Positions 1 through 9,500 of a stretch of 64,000 nt of DNA are shown in pieces. The notes under the pieces are model-generated. The model did not search any database and was not told the DNA's origin. It saw only the letters and a program-made list of their open reading frames with translations. Position 1 is the first letter of the stretch, and each line of letters starts with the position of its first letter. Origin of the DNA: Oscillospiraceae bacterium (GTDB lineage Bacteria > Bacillota > Clostridia > Oscillospirales > Oscillospiraceae). The DNA is taken from the NCBI GenBank assembly GCA_015067995.1, contig SVLJ01000004.1, positions 1 through 64,000 on the forward strand, written 5' to 3'. The position numbers were made by a program, and so were the translations under genes.

Positions 1-118
1 AATTTCAAACTTTTATCCTACAATTATATGCAATCTATACACATATTCCCTATAATATGAAACTTCTTTGCTGTAGTGGTTCGTGATAATAGGGATCATA
101 ACACTTCTATCTTGTATT
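1..118. other. AT-rich flank of unknown origin next to truncated spoIIIAC
   Basis: This stretch is visibly richer in A and T than the rest of the window and has no open reading frame on either strand. It sits exactly where the 3' part of spoIIIAC should be. An imperfect dyad (GTGATAATAG / ATCATAACAC, 83-104) lies about 15-20 bp from the point where spoIIIAC homology stops. That layout would suit one end of an integrated element carrying a recombinase attachment site, but no recombinase gene is in view. A contig-end assembly join is the other explanation. Confidence 0.45.
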
Positions 119-241
119 CCTAAGTCCGGCCAGCGTGGTCATCATGGCCTGTTCTTCCCGGCCGGATCGTACCAGCAGCTGATTCAGCACTGCTACAAGA
201 ATACCAATGGCCGCAATTTTGAAAATCAGATCCACATTCAT
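107..241 (-). pseudogene. spoIIIAC: spoIIIAC, 5' fragment (C-terminal part replaced)
   Basis: SpoIIIAC is a small membrane protein (about 65 residues) of the SpoIIIA-SpoIIQ channel between mother cell and forespore. The frame starts at ATG 241, 12 bp after spoIIIAB, with a weak GAGGAT ribosome site. Residues 1-40 read as a normal SpoIIIAC: MNVDLIFKIAAIGI, then NQLLVRSGREEQA, then TTLAGL. After Leu40 (codon 122-124) the family sequence stops, and RNTR plus a TAG at 107-109 follow. The second membrane helix is therefore missing. Either an element has inserted at about 119-124, or the contig is mis-joined there. spoIIIAD-AH should lie further downstream if the locus is otherwise intact. Confidence 0.7.
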
Positions 242-253
242 CTTCCGTCATCC

Positions 254-748
254 TCAAATCAGTAAAATAATCATCAGGGCAGCGCCGGAAAAGCAGAGCG
301 CACAGTTTCTTTTGGCCACTTCCGCTGCCGACTCATGACGTCTGTTCAGCTCCCTGTTCAACTGTGCGATGACCGAAAGCAGTCCTCTGCACGCCTGCTC
401 CTCATCTCCTGTCAAACAGTTTCCCAGTTCGGAAAGAGCTTGCGTTTCTTTTTCCGGCAGCGGCAGCGGCAACGCTGCCTGCCGCCATGCTGTCGAAAAC
501 CCCTTCTCTCCAGCCGACATCTGTACCATGTCAAAGAAGTCCTTGACATCTGCGTTGCGGTCAATCCCCGCTTTTACCAGCAGCCGCGGCATCGGCGTCC
601 GGTTCATCCGGATCTCATCCGCCATATTCTCCAATGCCGCCACCAAATCACGAAGCACAGTTATTCTGCGGCGTTCCTCGGCGGCGATCCGACAAAACAG
701 CCACGCTCCGGCAGTCATGACGCATCCGCCGCCTATCCACTTCAGCAT
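254..748 (-). CDS. spoIIIAB: Stage III sporulation protein AB
   Basis: The 164-residue protein is close to the usual 170 of SpoIIIAB. An N-terminal hydrophobic segment (about residues 1-22) is followed by a helical region resembling type II secretion GspF, with RRRITVLRDLVAALENMADE and conserved FSGAALMIILLI at the C-terminus. SpoIIIAB is part of the SpoIIIA-SpoIIQ complex in the mother-cell membrane, needed for engulfed forespore development and sigma-G activity. It overlaps spoIIIAA by 7 bp, so the two are translationally coupled, and is followed 12 bp later by the truncated spoIIIAC. The frame is intact. Identification rests on sequence features and gene order. Confidence 0.9.
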   Translation of the reverse strand: MLKWIGGGCVMTAGAWLFCRIAAEERRRITVLRDLVAALENMADEIRMNRTPMPRLLVKAGIDRNADVKDFFDMVQMSAGEKGFSTAWRQAALPLPLPEKETQALSELGNCLTGDEEQACRGLLSVIAQLNRELNRRHESAAEVAKRNCALCFSGAALMIILLI

Positions 749-1650
749 AAAAGCTCCTCCAGACGCCAGCTTCGCGCTCCTTTTTCTTCCTGAATCACCA
801 CGGCAAGCCGAAATACTTCTGCCGCCAGCAACTCTCTGTACAGCGGCTTGCGCAGCAGCTCCGCCGCATCTGCTGCGTGAATAGTGGCCAGAAGCCCTAC
901 ACCGCAGTTGGCAGCCATAGTCATAGCTTGAATATCTTCCCGCAGAGTAATTTCATCCACCGCCAGAATTTGTGGATTCATGCACCGCAGCATCATGGGA
1001 ATGGCTACCGCTTTCGGGCAGCCGTCCAGTACATCCGTGCGCTTTCCAACATCCATCTGCAGCACGCCTTGCCGTACAGCGGCCAGTTCTCCCCGCTCAT
1101 CCACCAATGCAACCCGCCGACCTTCGTTTCCATTGCATCCATCGGACAGACAGCGCACAAGCTCCCGCAGAAGCGTGGTTTTTCCGCCTCCGGGCGGCGC
1201 AAGAATCAACGTATTCACAAACCACCCATCGCGGAACAACCGTTCTGCCAATCCCTCCGCAATCCCGTGTTTTTCTCTGGCGATGCGGATCACCGCAGAA
1301 GAAAACTCTTTCATATTCATCACTGCCCCATCTTTGATCACCGCTGTGCCGCAGAAACCAACACGGCAGCCGCCCCGTATGGTCAGATAACCCTGCCGCA
1401 GCGTTTCCACCGCTGCGTACCGTGAAAACTCCGTCACCAGATTGCAAAGCGCCTCCAGATCCTCCTGTTCCACCGTCACGCCGCAGCCAAACTCCCGGCC
1501 AGACATCAGCACTGTCAGTTCCTGTCCCGCCCGCAGCCGGACTTCTTCCACTTGTCCGCGCTTTTCTGTCGGCAAAGCCAGTATTGCCCTGCGCAGACTT
1601 CCCGGCAGCACCGCAGCCGCGGACTCATAGCGCATATTCTCCTTGTCCAA
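742..1650 (-). CDS. spoIIIAA: Stage III sporulation protein AA, secretion-type ATPase
   Basis: SpoIIIAA is the cytoplasmic ATPase of the SpoIIIA-SpoIIQ channel, related to type II/IV secretion ATPases. Of 302 residues, the Walker A motif is APPGGGKTT (about 151-159), DERGE lies near 184, and the Walker B-like LAVDEIT is near 229-235, followed by ATIHA. The start used is TTG at 1650, preceded by a good AAGGGGGG site; an internal ATG at 1635 has AAGGAG too close to it, so the TTG is preferred but not certain. It is first in the locus, behind a sigma-E-like promoter. Transcription is expected only in the mother cell. Confidence 0.93.
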   Translation of the reverse strand: MDKENMRYESAAAVLPGSLRRAILALPTEKRGQVEEVRLRAGQELTVLMSGREFGCGVTVEQEDLEALCNLVTEFSRYAAVETLRQGYLTIRGGCRVGFCGTAVIKDGAVMNMKEFSSAVIRIAREKHGIAEGLAERLFRDGWFVNTLILAPPGGGKTTLLRELVRCLSDGCNGNEGRRVALVDERGELAAVRQGVLQMDVGKRTDVLDGCPKAVAIPMMLRCMNPQILAVDEITLREDIQAMTMAANCGVGLLATIHAADAAELLRKPLYRELLAAEVFRLAVVIQEEKGARSWRLEELLC

Positions 1651-1680: not shown

Positions 1681-1710
1681 AATCTATGACGGCTCGTCCG
1701 GCAGTATGAC
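1681..1710 (-). promoter_or_regulatory. Putative sigma-E promoter of the spoIIIA operon
   Basis: On the minus strand GTCATACT (1703-1710) and CATAGATT (1681-1688) are separated by 14 bp. They resemble the sigma-E consensus (KMATATT, 14-15 bp, CATACAMT). The predicted start of transcription is about 25 bp before the spoIIIAA start codon. Known spoIIIA operons are sigma-E driven, so the placement fits. The -35 side directly abuts the T-tract of the upstream terminator. Confidence 0.55.
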
Positions 1711-2750: not shown

Positions 2751-3284
2751 ATGGCTGGACATGGCTTTATTCACGATAAGCTGGAGATCAAATTCCTTAT
2801 TCTCTATATCACAGCACGGGTCATCGAGCCCATTCCCTTTGATACCGTACTGGATTTGACTCTGTGCGACGACGCCATCGACTATTTTGATTTCTCAGAA
2901 TGTCTGGCCGACCTGGTGAAGACCGAGCATCTGACACTGTCTGAGGAAGGGTTGTACACCATCACCGAAAAGGGTCTCAAGAACAGCCAGATCTGCGAAA
3001 CCAGTCTTCCCTATTCCGTGCGCCTCCGCTGCGATAAGAATCTGGCCGCCTGCAACCGTAAGCTCCGCCGCAAAAGTCAGGTGCGGGCCACCACTACCCG
3101 CCGTCCCAACGGCACCTTCACGGTGAACCTCTCTCTGGACGACGACATGGGCAGCGTCATGGATCTCAACCTGATGATCCCCCACGAGGGTATGGCACGG
3201 GAGATATCCGAAAAGTTCCGCACGGCCCCCGAAGATCTGTACGGGCAGATCATCAATCTGCTGCTGGCAGACGAGAAAAAGTAA
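2751..3284 (+). CDS. DUF4364 family protein
   Basis: The 177-residue soluble protein begins MAGHGFIHDKLEIKFLILYI, with GGAGG 7 bp upstream. The N-terminal 75 residues look like a winged helix-turn-helix (FLILYITARV ... LTLSEEGLYTITEKG), followed by a basic stretch (RKLRRKSQ) and a beta-rich C-terminal part. This matches DUF4364, a Firmicutes family assumed to bind DNA but without a known target. It is a single gene with its own promoter, divergent from the hypothetical gene at 1748-2578 and closed by a strong terminator. Confidence 0.85.
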   Translation: MAGHGFIHDKLEIKFLILYITARVIEPIPFDTVLDLTLCDDAIDYFDFSECLADLVKTEHLTLSEEGLYTITEKGLKNSQICETSLPYSVRLRCDKNLAACNRKLRRKSQVRATTTRRPNGTFTVNLSLDDDMGSVMDLNLMIPHEGMAREISEKFRTAPEDLYGQIINLLLADEKK

Positions 3285-3297
3285 GCGAAATATGTGT

Positions 3298-3329
3298 AAA
3301 GGGACACACCTGTACAGGTGTGTCCCTTT
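3298..3329. terminator. Bidirectional terminator
   Basis: A perfect 32-bp palindrome with arms AAAGGGACACACCTGT / ACAGGTGTGTCCCTTT is flanked by A and T runs. It serves the DUF4364 gene (plus) and the solute-binding protein gene (minus), which converge here. Confidence 0.9.
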
Positions 3330-3362
3330 CTTATGTTTGGTTTTTACAGTGTTGCGAAAAGC

Positions 3363-5114
3363 TTACTTTCTGGCCTCTGCGTCCATGTAGTAGTTCCAGT
3401 AATAGGTGGTCTGACCCACATGGTTGATGTAGACACCCGGCTGGGCCCAGATGGTGCCCATGGGATGGCCGAACAGAACGAAGGGAACCTCGTCGACAAC
3501 AGCCTGGCACCAGTCCTCATAGGCCTTAATGCTCTCGGGAGAGCCGGTGGGAGCAGCCTTCATGGCAGCGATGGCAGCGTCCTTGGCGTCGCTCTTCCAC
3601 CAGCCCTGAGAGCCGGTGACCATGGTGGACTGCAGCACGGGGTTGATCTCGTTCTTCTGGGTCTCCCAAACGCCAATGTCGTGGCCGGTGGCGGGGTCCT
3701 TACGCAGAGCGCCGTGAGAGCCGCCGTCAACGGCCATCAGCTCCACCTTCATACCGGCGGCCTCCAGCATGGGAATGACAGCCATGGTGGCATTGTAGAA
3801 GTTGCCGGTGGCATTGGTCAGATACTTGATGGGAGTGCCGTCATAGTTGGCCTTCTTCAAATATTCCTTGGCCAGCTCCACATTGGCGATGTTCCACTCG
3901 TTGTCGGCAATGATGGTGTTGTGATAAACGCTGGTGGAAACGATGGGGGTGGGCTCCAGGAAGAGGACACGCTCCTGACGACCTCCCGTGACTGCCATCA
4001 GAACAGCCTTGCAGTCGATAGCGGCACGGATGGCCTTGCGGACATTCACATTGTAAACAGGACTGTCGCTGTTGGACTCGTCCAGGTTGAAGAAAATGCC
4101 ATGGGTCCATGCAGTACCGGCATCGTTGAGCTTGATGCCCTGAGCCAGAGCGGTCTCCCACATAGCGGCCTGGATATCAGAGACGTGGTATTCACCGGCG
4201 ATCATGGCGGCGGTGCGGGAGGAAGCATCGGGGTTGTAAGACAGGGTAATGGTATCCACATATGCCTTCACGGGAGCGGCGACACCCAGCGCATCCTCAT
4301 TGCCCACAGTGTGGGGCTGATAATTCTCGTTGCGGGTGAGGACGATCTCCTCAGTGGTGTACTTGGTCAGCTTGTAGGGGCCGGAACCGATGACGTCTGC
4401 CTCGACGCCGATCATCTCGGCTGTGCCGCCGCGGATCAGGCCGTTGGGCTGCACCTCGCCGCCGGTAACGGGATACTTGTCACAGATCTCCTTGGGCATG
4501 ATCTTATAATCGCCCTGAGAGCCGCACAGTGCGTTCAGGAAATTCAGGTTCAGGGTACTGTTCTTGAAAGTGATGGTGTTGCCCTCCACGGTCATGGTGG
4601 CATCCTTCCAGTTCTTGTCATAGTTGGCGGAAGTGGCCAGACCGATGGCGCGACGCAGGGATGCCTCCACGTCCTCGATGGTGATCTTCTTGCCGTTGGA
4701 GAAATAACGCTCGCGGAGAGTCAGCTTGATGGTGAGGCCGTCTGCAGACTCTTCATAGTCGCAGACCTGACCGTAGATCTTGCCGTTGACGTCACGGAGG
4801 CAGGTGTTCTCGTAGATGTGGGACAGATAGCGGGTATTGCCCAGAGCACCGTTGGTCTGGTGAACGTCCATAGTGTTGGTGGCGTTGGAACTGCCGATAA
4901 TGAGGTTACCGCCGTAGCGAGCCTTCTCTTCATCCTCGGTCTCCGCGTCCTTGGGGGTCTCGATCTGCTCCAGGGTGACGCCGCCGGAGCTGGCAGGCTT
5001 GCTGGGCTCGCTGGGGGTAGTGCCGGGAGTACTGGTGGTGGGCTTATCGCCGCCGCAGGCCACCAGTGCCATGGTCATGACCAGGGCAAGAATCAGTGCG
5101 ATGGTTCTTTTCAT
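3363..5114 (-). CDS. Family-5 ABC transporter substrate-binding lipoprotein (peptide type)
   Basis: The 583-residue protein starts with a lipoprotein signal peptide (MKRTIALILALVMTMALVAC, lipobox LVAC, Cys20), then a low-complexity Thr/Ser/Pro linker. The rest reads as a SBP_bac_5 fold of the OppA/DppA type, with YGGNLIIGSSN, a central RENYQPHTVG and IRAAIDCKAVL. Such proteins capture oligopeptides, nickel complexes or sugars outside the cell for an Opp-type permease. No permease or ATPase gene is adjacent, so it is an orphan that must share a transporter encoded elsewhere. AGGAGG precedes the start. The divergent LysR gene is a likely regulator. Substrate unknown. Confidence 0.88.
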   Translation of the reverse strand: MKRTIALILALVMTMALVACGGDKPTTSTPGTTPSEPSKPASSGGVTLEQIETPKDAETEDEEKARYGGNLIIGSSNATNTMDVHQTNGALGNTRYLSHIYENTCLRDVNGKIYGQVCDYEESADGLTIKLTLRERYFSNGKKITIEDVEASLRRAIGLATSANYDKNWKDATMTVEGNTITFKNSTLNLNFLNALCGSQGDYKIMPKEICDKYPVTGGEVQPNGLIRGGTAEMIGVEADVIGSGPYKLTKYTTEEIVLTRNENYQPHTVGNEDALGVAAPVKAYVDTITLSYNPDASSRTAAMIAGEYHVSDIQAAMWETALAQGIKLNDAGTAWTHGIFFNLDESNSDSPVYNVNVRKAIRAAIDCKAVLMAVTGGRQERVLFLEPTPIVSTSVYHNTIIADNEWNIANVELAKEYLKKANYDGTPIKYLTNATGNFYNATMAVIPMLEAAGMKVELMAVDGGSHGALRKDPATGHDIGVWETQKNEINPVLQSTMVTGSQGWWKSDAKDAAIAAMKAAPTGSPESIKAYEDWCQAVVDEVPFVLFGHPMGTIWAQPGVYINHVGQTTYYWNYYMDAEARK

Positions 5115-5413
5115 TTGGTTTCCTCCTATTGTTTTTATCTATCATTCACCCCGCCATACGCGGGGGGATGACCGGTTGAAAGGAAGTGTCTATTTATCTG
5201 GAAACGGCGGCAGAAACGGCATGAAAAGAGCACACGACACGGATGGGAACCCAAAACCATCATATCAGGAGGCCCGTCTCTGCCGCCGTTGTCCACGCGA
5301 AAAATGGAAATTCTGTCTGTCCGCGGCTTGACATACGCCGCAGGAATTTCTATAATCAATTAAAATACATAAACATCTATTTATTTTTACCACGCTTGGA
5401 GGAGGGTTCTTTT
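5115..5413. other. Divergent intergenic region between binding protein and LysR genes
   Basis: These 299 bases hold no gene. A hairpin CCCCGC-CATAC-GCGGGG (5149-5165) lies in the leader of the binding-protein gene, 35 bp before its start. The lysR promoter is at 5328-5356. I did not find a consensus promoter for the binding-protein gene, which would fit activation by the LysR protein. No clear T-N11-A LysR box could be singled out. Confidence 0.5.
5328..5356 (+). promoter_or_regulatory. Consensus vegetative promoter of the lysR-type gene
   Basis: TTGACA (5328-5333), 17 bp, TATAAT (5351-5356): a perfect sigma-A promoter, with the start codon 57 bp further on. Confidence 0.85.
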
Positions 5414-6349
5414 ATGAACTATCAGGGTGCCAAAATCTTCCTGTCCATTGTGGAGCATCAGAGCATTTCCGCTGCTGCAAGGGCGCTGTATATCACCCAG
5501 CCGGCCGTTTCCGCCCAGCTGAAAACACTGGAGGATGAGTTGGGCGTCCAGCTTCTGCAGCGGCAGCGGGGCCGAAGCAAAATCATACTAACGCAGGAGG
5601 GCGCAAGGTTTATTTCCGTGGCCAAATCGTGGGTTCAGGCAGAGAAGGAACTGCAGCAGTTCAAGGATTCCTGCAGCTATGCGTCCTTTCGAATCGGCGC
5701 CACCCGTAAAGTGCACGAATATCTCGTTTCTCCGATCGTTGAAAAGCTGCAGAAAGCACTCCCGCATCTGGATATACAGTTATACATCATCCCGGATGAT
5801 GAACTCAACGCCATGTACCATCCGCCGCATTTTGATGTTGCTTTCCGTTTCTATTATGCAGTTTATACCCGCCCCGATGCCACACAGTACTGTACACGCA
5901 CCAACCTCTTTAAAGACCCTTTCCGCATTCTCTGTCCTGCGAACACCGTGCTGCCGGATCGGCTGCTTGCTCCGGAAGACCTTGACCCGGTCTATCAGGT
6001 CCGGCATGCATATCCTTCTGAAACCACGGTGTTCTGGCAGCAGCATTTCCCAGAAAATCTCATACCGCAATACCCGCTGCTGCGGAATATGCTGAATGCC
6101 GGCAACTACTTTAACGATCCCCGATGCTGGGCACTCGTCTCTGCCAGTATGGTGGGTTATCTGTTGGAGCAGCACCCGGGCCAGCTGGCTGTGCGCCGTA
6201 TTGCTCCTGAACCCATCTCCTGCAACTGCAATCTGATCGTTTCCAAAGCCTGTACCCGCTCGGATGTTGTCAACACGCTGCTGAATTGCTGCCGGGAATA
6301 TCTGGCAGAGCGGCCATATCTGGAAAGTCTTTTACCGGACAATATCTGA
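5414..6349 (+). CDS. LysR-family transcriptional regulator
   Basis: The 311-residue regulator starts at ATG 5414, with GGAGGAGGG just upstream; the longer open frame has no ribosome site and includes the promoter. The N-terminal winged helix-turn-helix is typical: FLSIVEHQSISAAARALYI (about residues 9-27), then TQPAVSAQLKTLEDELG. A periplasmic-binding-like effector domain follows from about residue 90. It is divergent from the family-5 binding-protein gene, the usual arrangement of a LysR protein and its target. The effector is not predictable from sequence alone. Confidence 0.92.
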   Translation: MNYQGAKIFLSIVEHQSISAAARALYITQPAVSAQLKTLEDELGVQLLQRQRGRSKIILTQEGARFISVAKSWVQAEKELQQFKDSCSYASFRIGATRKVHEYLVSPIVEKLQKALPHLDIQLYIIPDDELNAMYHPPHFDVAFRFYYAVYTRPDATQYCTRTNLFKDPFRILCPANTVLPDRLLAPEDLDPVYQVRHAYPSETTVFWQQHFPENLIPQYPLLRNMLNAGNYFNDPRCWALVSASMVGYLLEQHPGQLAVRRIAPEPISCNCNLIVSKACTRSDVVNTLLNCCREYLAERPYLESLLPDNI

Positions 6350-6456
6350 ACGTTTTCTTACGTCAAAGTCTAACATGCGCACGAAAGAATTGGAAGGATT
6401 TCGCCCGTTTTCAAATAGTCCGATTTTCCATCTTCAAAATAAATAACTGTTTATAT

Positions 6457-6499
6457 AACAACACTCCTCCGGCGAAGATTTCGCCGGAGGAGCGTTGTT
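6457..6499. terminator. Bidirectional terminator between lysR-type gene and dnaE
   Basis: Long stem AACAAC-a-CTCCTCCGGCGAA / TTCGCCGGAGGAG-c-GTTGTT with a short loop, just after dnaE (minus, stop at 6514) and about 110 bp after the lysR-type gene (plus). Confidence 0.8.
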
Positions 6500-6513
6500 A
6501 TATTGTCGTTTCC

Positions 6514-9500
6514 TTACTTGATCATCACGTTGTCTGCGCCAAGGACTTCCTTCATTTCGTCAATCAGTGCCTGATGCAGCACACATGCGCCGCCATAGAC
6601 CTTGCGGGTGTCTGCCGCCACGATCTTCACCTGTGTTTTTCCCGGAAAAAGCTTGAAAACACGGTTAATGTGCAGCATCTGTGGGCTGGCCACAGATGGT
6701 ACTTTCAGATACAGCACACCGCCCTGCAGGAACTTCCCGCTGCTCCGCCGCTCTTTCTCCGGCGCCGGGGGCAGGACTGCCGTATCCAGCGGATAGGCGC
6801 TGTCGCACATGATCTGGGGCGCCTTCTCATCCCGGACGGAGAGCTTACCCTGAATAATCACCGGTTGGTTCTCTTTGAGATAGCTGCCGCAGCGCTCCAA
6901 CACACGTGAGAAGCAAAGCAGTTCAATGGAAGCTGTATCATCCTCCACCGTTACATAAGCCATGAGGCTGTTGTTCTTGGTGGTCTTGGTTTTGCTGGAG
7001 GTGACAACACCGGCAATGGTGATGCGCTGCTCGTCAGCAAACTGCACAGGACCTTCTTCACGGGCAAAGTCCGCAAGAATGGTGCCGATAGGCGGCGCGC
7101 CCAGCTTTCGCAGCTGCCCCCGATAGGCGTCCATAGGATGGCCGGAAAGATAGAGACCGGTGGTCTCCTTTTCCATGGTCATCAGCTCCTGAGGGGTAAA
7201 CTCCGGAATATCCGGCAGCGGCGTTTCCCGCACCGCAGGCGTAGATTCCGCAGCCCCCATTGCCATGGAGAAGAAGTCCATCTGTCCTTCAATATTCTGC
7301 TTTCGTGTGGAGGCGATGGAGTCCATCACTTTTTCATATACAGCGATCAGCTGAGAACGCCGTGCGCCGGTAGAATCAAACGCACCGCTGCGGATGAGAT
7401 TTTCCACCGCTCGCTTGTTCATGTCGCTGCCCAGCATCCGCTGGCAAAAATCATGCAGGGAGGCAAAATCGCCGTTCTGACGCTCACGCACCACCGCCTG
7501 TATGAAGCCGCGGCCAATATTCTTCACCGCAGCCAGGCCGAAACGGATGCCCTCCCCTTCCACAGCAAAGCTGTCATAGGAGCGGTTGATATCCGGCGGC
7601 AGCAGCTGAATGCCGCAGTCACGGCACTCATTGATATAGCCTGCGATCTTTTCCGTATTGTCCAGTACGCTGGTCATCAGCGCGGCCATGTATTCCTTGC
7701 AATAATGGCACTTGAGATATGCCGTCTGATAAGCCACCACAGCGTAGCTGACGGCGTGGGCCTTGTTAAAGGCGTAGTTTGCGAAATCGTAAATTTCCTG
7801 ATAGATGGCCTCTGCCACGGGAGCGGGGATGCCGCCCGCCACGCAGCCGGGGATCTTCCGCTCCGGATCACCGTGGATAAAGGTGTCCTTCTCCTTCTGG
7901 ATCTGGGCAGCCTTCTTCTTGGAGATAGCGCGGCGCACCATGTCCGCCTGCCCCAGTGAGTAACCCGCCAGCTTGCGGAAGATCTCGATGACCTGCTCCT
8001 GATAAACGATACAGCCATAGGTGATGGACAGGATCGGCTCCAAAGAGGGGTGCTTATAGGTGATCAGCGAAGGATCGTGCTTACAGGCGATGAATCTGGG
8101 AATAGAGTCCATGGGGCCTGGGCGATACAGCGCAATGATAGCGGTGATATCCTCAATGCTGTGGGGCTTCAAACCCACGCATACGCCGGTCATACCCGTG
8201 GATTCCATCTGGAACACACCGGAGGTCTTGCCCTGTCCGATCATCTCAAAGGTAGCCGGATCGTGTTCAGGAATCTCCTCCAGCCGGAATTCCGGATGCT
8301 CACGCTGCACCGCTTTCACGGCATCATCCAGTACCGTCAGGTTCCGCAGACCAAGGAAGTCCATCTTCAGCAGGCCAAGCTCTTCCAGCGTGGTCATGAT
8401 GTACTGGCAAACAACCGACTCATCGTTCTTCGCCAGCGGCACGTACTCATATACAGGACGCTTGGTTATGACAACGCCCGCCGCATGGGTAGATGCGTTG
8501 CGAGGCATACCTTCCAGCTTCCGGGCGGTATCGATGAGCTTTCGCACACGCTCGTCCGCATCATACATATCGGAAAGTGGCTTACTAAGCCGCAGGGCAT
8601 CGTCCAGTGTGATGTGCAGAGCATTTGGTACCTGCTTGGCAATGACATCCACATCTGCGTATGGCATACCCAAAACGCGGCCCACATCGCGGATAACGCC
8701 CCGGGCGGCCATGGTGCCGAAGGTGATAATCTGCGCTACATGGTCGTCACCGTATTTGCGGCGGACATAATCCACCACCTCGCCGCGGCGGGTATCGCCG
8801 AAGTCCATATCAATATCCGGCATGCTGACACGCTCCGGATTCAGGAAGCGCTCGAAATACAGACTGTATTCCATGGGATCCACATCCGTGATGTCCAGAC
8901 AGTAGGACACGATGCTGCCTGCCGCGCTGCCGCGCCCCGGCCCAACGGGAATTCCGCGGCTTTTTGCGTAGCGCACAAAGTCGGACACGATGAGAAAATA
9001 GTCCGTAAAGCCCATTTTTTCGATCATGTCAATCTCATATTCCATCTGCCTGCGATATTCCGGCGTCCCTTCGCCGTAGCGGGCCGTATAACCCTCCGCA
9101 CACAGCTTTCGCAGATAGGACGGAGAATCATACCCCTCCGGCAGCTTGAATTCCGGCAAGTGGTATTTACCGAAGGTAAACTCCACATTGCACATATCGG
9201 CGATCTTCGCCGTATTTTCCACTGCGTCCGTATACCCGGCGAACAACGCCCGCATTTCCTCCTCTGACCGGAGATAGAAGTTCTGAGGCTCATAGCGCAT
9301 ACGGCTCTCGTCATCCACCGTTTTGCCGGTCTGGATACACATGAGGATATCGTGGGCCTCAGCGTCTTCCTTTCGGAGATAGTGAGCGTCATTGGTACAC
9401 ACCAGCGGCAATCCGGTTTCCTGATGTATGCGCAGCAGAAGGCGGTTTACTTCCACCTGCTCCCGGATACCGTGATCCTGCAGTTCCAGATAAAAGTGCT

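Follow-up and report, generated by a model that had tools for sequence, protein, structure and literature searches.

A mobile element interrupts the sporulation gene spoIIIAC at codon 39 in Oscillospiraceae and may restore it on excision

Background

Sporulation genes that are split by excised elements have been described in several cases, namely sigK, spsM, spoVFB, gerE and yabG (PMC10747680, PMC5595907, PMC6957869). The skin-type elements among them are skin in sigK, SPbeta in spsM, vfbin in spoVFB and yin in yabG (PMC10747680, PMC6957869), while gin, in gerE of Bacillus cereus ATCC10987, is 28.6 kb long and has no phage genes reported (PMC5595907). In the open-access literature searched, as far as those texts go, we found no description of spoIIIAC as the target of an element, nor of a natural tandem attP.

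The spoIIIAC gene is used earlier in sporulation than sigK, spsM, spoVFB and yabG; in B. subtilis the spoIIIA genes are expressed in the mother cell, and the SpoIIIA channel has a role in sigma-G activity. Also relevant are systems in which attP lies inside a coding gene and integration alters the protein, as with the SSV-type archaeal integrases and the integration-dependent immunity of mycobacteriophages, both of which use tyrosine integrases.

In this study, we describe an element that interrupts spoIIIAC in five Oscillospiraceae genomes, the recombinase at its border and the att sites through which it appears to enter the gene.

Results

An interrupted spoIIIAC at the edge of the window

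The window, by which we mean the whole stretch of 64,000 nucleotides that was analysed, starts at base 1 of contig C6 in an Oscillospiraceae genome of 40 contigs (G000) and carries on its minus strand the beginning of the spoIIIA operon, in the order spoIIIAA (1650-742), spoIIIAB (748-254) and spoIIIAC (from 241). The features considered here are as follows.

1..125, minus strand: AT-rich end of the integrated element, GC 0.296; together with the core, identical to G065 at 127/127 bases and different from An858 at 9/127
13..126, minus strand: putative C-terminal tail of the element's serine recombinase, 37 residues and a stop; frame open in 5 elements
105..123, minus strand: P' half-site of the element, TTAGGAATAC with arm AAGATAGAA, within a 24-base pattern at 100-123; the attP2 to which it belongs is intact in An858
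107..241, minus strand: truncated ORF of 44 residues, SpoIIIAC 1-40 followed by RNTR and a stop
126..127, minus strand: crossover dinucleotide GG of codon 39 (GGA), CC on the plus strand, placed by host/element differences in G000 and G065
128..241, minus strand: host 5' part of spoIIIAC, codons 1-38, within the ORF 107-241 that matches TIGR02848 (positions 1-40 of 64) and PF06686 (1-34)
254..748, minus strand: spoIIIAB, PF09548, E 5.1e-23, positions 1-170 of 170
742..1650, minus strand: spoIIIAA, PF19568, E 2.2e-69, positions 7-291 of 306
1681..1710, minus strand: sigma-E-like promoter of the spoIIIA operon, GTCATA-N15-TCATAGATT, a motif kept upstream of spoIIIAA

The truncated ORF matches TIGR02848 over model positions 1-40 of 64 with an E value of 1.3e-16 and PF06686 over positions 1-34 of 56, and the reading frames of spoIIIAA and spoIIIAB are open with Pfam matches over nearly their whole length, their NCBIfam matches both falling under the curated cut-off. 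The original prediction that codons 1-40 are those of a normal SpoIIIAC and that spoIIIAA and spoIIIAB are intact agrees with these matches. It had also placed the end of SpoIIIAC homology at 119-124 and called the stretch beyond it AT-rich and gene-free: the break exists, but the crossover lies a few bases away at 126-127, and the low GC content holds (0.296 in 1-125 versus 0.569 in 242-1650), but the stretch probably codes for the C-terminal tail of a recombinase, as described below.

The same codon is cut in five genomes

Searches of 86 genomes of the genus with the SpoIIIAC family profile and the element-end pattern found spoIIIAC broken at the same codon beside a homologous element end in four of them, G000 (the genome of the window), G008, G021 and G065. 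The 24-base pattern at 100-123 occurs in the same number of these genomes (4/86), always beside the 5' part of spoIIIAC, and the exact end pattern, searched in one genome per species across 84,980 species, returned four stretches, those of G021, G008, G065 and Pseudoflavonifractor phocaeensis An858, in a collection that may lack the record of the window itself. The cut falls within codon 39 in all five genomes, in keeping with the predicted insertion of an element at a precise site in spoIIIAC.

In An858 one contig of 167,731 bp holds, in the same orientation, the 5' part of spoIIIAC (2755-2865), its 3' part (129228-129308) and spoIIIAD (129329-129688), and the element that separates the two halves measures 126,386 bp from core to core. 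After the element, SpoIIIAD, AE and AH are named by Pfam and the frames taken as spoIIIAF and spoIIIAG are open, and a large serine recombinase is located at the element border; both the recombinase and the remainder of spoIIIAC with spoIIIAD to AH had been expected from the window before the far side was seen. Pfam also names spoIIIAD, AE and AH on the far side in the G065 contig, and spoIIIAD and AE lie on the far side of the element in G021; spoIIIAD and spoIIIAE gave no match in the bins of G000 or G008. An old, dead spoIIIAC is disfavoured by the intact downstream genes and the two intact halves in An858, G065 and G021, G000 and G008 excepted.

When the flanks were joined in script at the core, An858, G065 and G021 each gave a SpoIIIAC protein of 64 residues, that of An858 matching the whole PF06686 model with 72.3 bits versus 45.7 for the 5' half. 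Among the 120 database matches listed for the joined An858 protein (8000 candidates scored), none is identical and the best reaches 98%; the two best listed each show a single internal difference, which in one case is Gly in place of Ala at the crossover codon. We regard it as certain that spoIIIAC carries a true insertion, as opposed to an assembly join.

Between G000 and G065, which are two species, the element ends, core included, show 0/127 differences while their spoIIIAC 5' parts differ at 24/120 bases, which points to horizontal transfer, and comparison of the two loci suggests that the same element likely entered the two hosts separately. Past the GG, the contig of G000 and both contigs of G065 run for 125 bases, those of G021 for 118 and 93 and that of G008 for 423, the last of which include an ORF that by eye resembles An858 3130-3621. 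The 125 bases and GG together make 127, a common k-mer length, and such ends may reflect the same element end in two hosts, or in a host and a circle, within one assembly; the contig ends of G021 (118/93) and G008 (423) do not fit a k-mer explanation.

At the level of the family, PF06686 is present in 354 of 400 genomes with a completeness of 80% and up. The 12 with weak best PF06686 scores were re-searched, a set that excludes the other genomes with scores near 1e-14 and the 46/400 without a match, and of the 400 an interruption of this kind was found only in An858 (= G148) and G000. Matches to the 5' part of spoIIIAC only, at contig ends and without foreign DNA, were seen in G495 and G218; in G495, spoIIIAC is divided between contigs C47 and C38, whose overlap covers the attB region and contains no foreign DNA, simply a break between contigs. 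Within the genus, PF06686 (the SpoIIIAC/AD family) is absent from 7/86 genomes (G005, G016, G068, G090, G095, G103 and G105), among them G068 with 97% completeness, and these are possibly non-spore-forming lineages.

A recombinase lineage tied to spoIIIAC

The recombinase at the border, LSR-R (An858 127390-129258), has Resolvase (PF00239) and Recombinase (PF07508) domains and is 622 residues long from the first ATG, a length that, like others given for LSR-R, depends on the start chosen, since relatives start a few residues later. The gene is seen whole only in An858, and its 3' end lies inside attR, so that the protein ends in residues encoded by spoIIIAC in a different frame. Twenty database relatives (P0121-P0140) share at least 47% identity with it and score 931 bits and up, the next one scoring 733 bits. 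By a rule written after the tails had been seen, 13/20 of these relatives end in full in out-of-frame spoIIIAC (expected signature GGN-Leu-Val-Val-Val), compared with 0/100 of the next relatives; of the remainder, five fit partially (P0123, P0125, P0127, P0129, P0137), P0131 departs and P0133 is without its C-terminus. A tree of 31 rows, for which the program warned of long branches, places the clade on one side of a branch with support 86/75, and 19 of its 20 rows in a part with 100/99. A recombinase lineage specific to spoIIIAC is well supported.

LSR-R has a match at 1e-60 in 120 of the 400 family genomes, the nearest of these relatives, An858's own excepted, being at most 46% identical, and among 30 related loci viewed with ~1.5 kb on each side only An858's own adjoins spoIIIAC. 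Every match in the plasmid and phage collections is under 60% identity. Exact searches of IMG/VR with both att patterns gave no match, and a search with the single LSR-R sequence no relative; the clade alignment returned 21 loci there, with spoIIIAC or spoIIIAD in none of the stretches examined. The LSR loci found in G000, G008, G021, G065, G066 and G016 are at most 39% identical to LSR-R, so none of the LSR loci found in these bins is the element's recombinase.

A second large serine recombinase lies near the left border of the An858 element (4982-7132, locus L096) and is followed by two ORFs without a Pfam match and a DUF6551 protein. Just upstream of LSR-R are two small ORFs without a confident family (L102:6533-6817 and L102:6888-7415; 94 and 175 residues), one or other of which is a possible directionality factor or regulator.

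Crossover within codon 39 and tandem attP sites

The limits of the crossover can be read from positions where host and element differ. In G000 the base to the left of GG is the host's C where attP has A, and in the attR of G065 the base to the right of GG is the host's G where attP again has A; with differences on both sides, the exchanged unit is GG, the first two bases of codon 39. The An858 junctions (attL GGCGGC/ACTGG, attR TGAGC/TCTGG) place the exchange at GC in the same codon, in an alanine allele. The dinucleotide exchanged is therefore GG, from a glycine codon, in G000, G021 and G065, and GC, from an alanine codon, in An858.

Serine integrases require matching central dinucleotides, and the element carries both. 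An858 is integrated through the site with GC (attP1), which has left attP2 (TTCTATCTTCTTACCTAAGCAGGACTTAGGAATACAAGATAGAA, central GG) intact at 2899-2942, just inside the left border; G021 has beside attR a second complete att site, TTCTATCTTCTTGTCTCCTGAGCACTGGTCGCAACAAGATAGAA, with central GC, whose counterpart in G065 shows one substitution. The two sites, attP1 and attP2, agree at 30/44 positions (44 bases each) and have inverted arms in both cases. On the host side, 66 spoIIIAC loci have the core dinucleotide GG in 60 cases and GC in 1 (G445, from the genus of An858), with 5 unplaced (L015, L137, L138, L140, L144), and the crossover codon encodes Gly in 65, Ala in 52 and another residue in 3 of the 120 listed SpoIIIAC proteins nearest the joined An858 protein, so both target alleles are common around An858. 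Each of the two attP dinucleotides is seen used in a matching host, attP1 (GC) only in An858. From these sequences it seems likely that the tandem attP, with central GG and GC, fits the two alleles, glycine and alanine, found at the target codon.

A motif that we read as the upstream attP is encoded in the tails of P0121-P0131 (11/20 clade members), and some of the nine members without it show, by eye, a different repeat. In P0122 the last 60 residues apparently encode three consecutive att sites, and the core of the first may be neither GG nor GC.

The recombinase gene is probably split as well

If the ends of the An858 element are joined as in a circle, the LSR-R frame stays open across attP1 and attP2, enters the left end and reaches a stop at a length of 676 residues, its last part being the complement of window 126-13. 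Between the tails of G000 and An858, four codons have changed, all synonymous in the LSR-R frame and all non-synonymous in the other two, a test that consists of four codon changes between near copies; the comparison of G000 with G021 (one synonymous, two non-synonymous) and that of G021 with An858 (three and two) are pairs that are not decisive. The diverged end in G008 is also open in the LSR-R frame, with a tail alignment score of 55 versus a maximum of 20 in 2000 shuffles, and as the DNA itself is also alike there we take the coding evidence as good, not final. The circular-form tail is absent from all 19 clade members that retain their C-terminus.

The AT-rich end of the element is thus probably the recombinase's own C-terminal tail, which would be continuous with its gene only when the element is circular. 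On this reading of the frames, integration would probably split both spoIIIAC and the recombinase gene, and excision would mend both.

Gene content of the An858 element

The element encodes a VirD4-type coupling protein (PF02534, E 8.4e-54) and a TraG/VirB4-like P-loop ORF of only 257 residues. The Pfam scan covered 49 of the 120 ORFs of at least 80 residues, and among these 49 it found neither a relaxase nor virion or packaging genes. The site-specific integrase expected of an ICE is predicted from the domain content of LSR-R and the second serine recombinase.

Other cargo includes a DISARM-like region (L099:9369 to L100:6792; An858 69369-86792) with a DrmD-like helicase, a methylase matching type IIG and DrmMI models and a UvrD-like helicase, a 2128-residue ORF lying between the DISARM-like genes. 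There are also a CARF-nuclease-like ORF (L098:13448-14626, minus strand) matching Card1/Csx1-type models and a surface protein of 1981 residues (L097:4773-10718) with 15 SpaA stretches and a thioester domain.

Sigma-E-like motifs

Upstream of spoIIIAA, a sharply conserved motif with the same spacing is found in 20 genomes of the genus and in An858, which, from the B. subtilis consensus, we take to be a sigma-E promoter. A first scan with that consensus missed An858's own spoIIIA promoter at up to two mismatches and was set aside. The scan of the An858 element for the sigma-E motif gave 199 matches versus 189-231 in four simulated sequences, which is chance level, and the highest-scoring site ahead of the LSR-R operon, at 126470, reaches 12.1, within the range of the simulated sequences.

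Discussion

The reading that we favour, and hold with moderate confidence, is that of an ICE-like element belonging to a lineage specialised on spoIIIAC, which restores the gene when it is excised. Integration would take place by a two-base crossover in codon 39, through the attP whose dinucleotide matches the host, and excision would join the flanks so that spoIIIAC is restored exactly and in frame. In a sporulating mother cell the element would be cut out and SpoIIIAC, and thus the SpoIIIA channel, could be made, while the copy in the forespore would stay integrated, as with skin, gin and yin. Programmed excision during sporulation is plausible, and its timing in the mother cell is suggested by the pattern of the known cases sigK, spsM, spoVFB, gerE and yabG.

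A smaller but appreciable chance belongs to the view that the same site-specific element has no programmed excision, sporulation staying off until a chance departure of the element for transfer and spoIIIAC being targeted only as a gene that is conserved and dispensable for growth. The chance level of sigma-E motifs in the element is consistent with this, as are the circular-form tail, shown by 0/19 clade members with a C-terminus, the bins of G000 and G008 without spoIIIAD and AE, and the seven genus genomes without any PF06686 match. Against this view stands that spoIIIAD-AH are intact in An858, and AD, AE and AH in G065, that the restoration of spoIIIAC is exact and in frame, and that a clade diverse enough to range down to 47% identity has most of its members ending in a gene that spore formers need, although none of these three points proves the timing.

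More tentative still is a developmental switch built on the two split genes, with long and short recombinase tails, an attP array for either allele and excision gating sigma-G in the forespore. The circular form would make a recombinase with a long tail (676 residues, counted from the start chosen) that integrates, and the integrated form a short-tailed one (622 residues in An858) that has its end read from spoIIIAC out of frame and is poised for excision; the array of two attP sites (three in P0122), with central dinucleotides that match alternative target codons, would permit entry into either allele, and early excision in the mother cell would gate sigma-G activity in the forespore.

The tandem attP could instead be a relic of recombination between elements, or an extra binding site for the recombinase, with no adaptation to two alleles involved. 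We think this rather unlikely, as the upstream motif is kept in 11/20 clade members (P0121-P0131) and the sole host in which attP1 was used carries the matching GC allele, even if that single natural integration in An858 is all that is known for attP1, the upstream cores of P0130 and P0122, read from protein only, need not be GC, and the remaining 9/20 lack the motif in this form. It is improbable, in turn, that the recombinase at the left end (An858 4982-7132, with its accessory ORFs) is the integrase and LSR-R a passenger or excision enzyme; Resolvase and Recombinase domains are present in the former too, which is ~2 kb away from the left border, but it is LSR-R that sits directly against the att sites, and the majority of its 20 nearest database relatives read on into spoIIIAC. 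An assembly artefact, which the original prediction kept as an alternative and for which one might cite the contig end at window base 1 and the ends that fall 125 bases beyond the core in the contig of G000 and the two of G065, has a negligible chance given one An858 isolate contig that spans the whole element with both junctions and five genomes with the element in the same codon.

As a new and early target, spoIIIAC would join the few sporulation genes known to be split by mobile DNA, here in Oscillospiraceae as opposed to Bacillus or Clostridium. The locus offers a natural integration system whose alternative attP cores appear matched to target alleles, which makes the purpose of the array directly testable, and the tail switch, if real, would be a simple means for a serine recombinase to sense its own state of integration. 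For genome annotation and the prediction of sporulation, spoIIIAC may be scored as broken in genomes where it is merely interrupted.

Comparison with known systems

In its relation to host and recombinase genes the element can be set beside four kinds of described system. Like ICEs, the An858 element has serine recombinases and a VirD4-type coupling protein; unlike them, it shows no relaxase in the ORFs scanned and its TraG/VirB4-like ORF has only 257 residues. In the SSV-type and mycobacteriophage systems integration likewise alters the protein, whereas here the protein shortened at its C-terminus would be a serine recombinase, and a host gene would be split in the same event.

The likeness to gin lies in a non-prophage intervening element with several serine recombinases that splits a very small gene (PMC5595907). 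Unlike gin, at 28.6 kb, the An858 element has 126 kb, a conjugation coupling protein and a recombinase lineage tied to spoIIIAC. Like the skin-type elements, it lies inside the coding frame of a sporulation gene, has a large serine recombinase at its border and leaves the gene restored when its flanks are joined. It differs from them in its target, spoIIIAC, in the tandem attP, in a recombinase gene that itself crosses the att site, in having no virion gene in the 49/120 ORFs scanned and in a sporulation-specific excision that is proposed here by analogy. By that analogy, the element would behave as skin-type elements do, with spoIIIAC as its new target and excision expected during sporulation.
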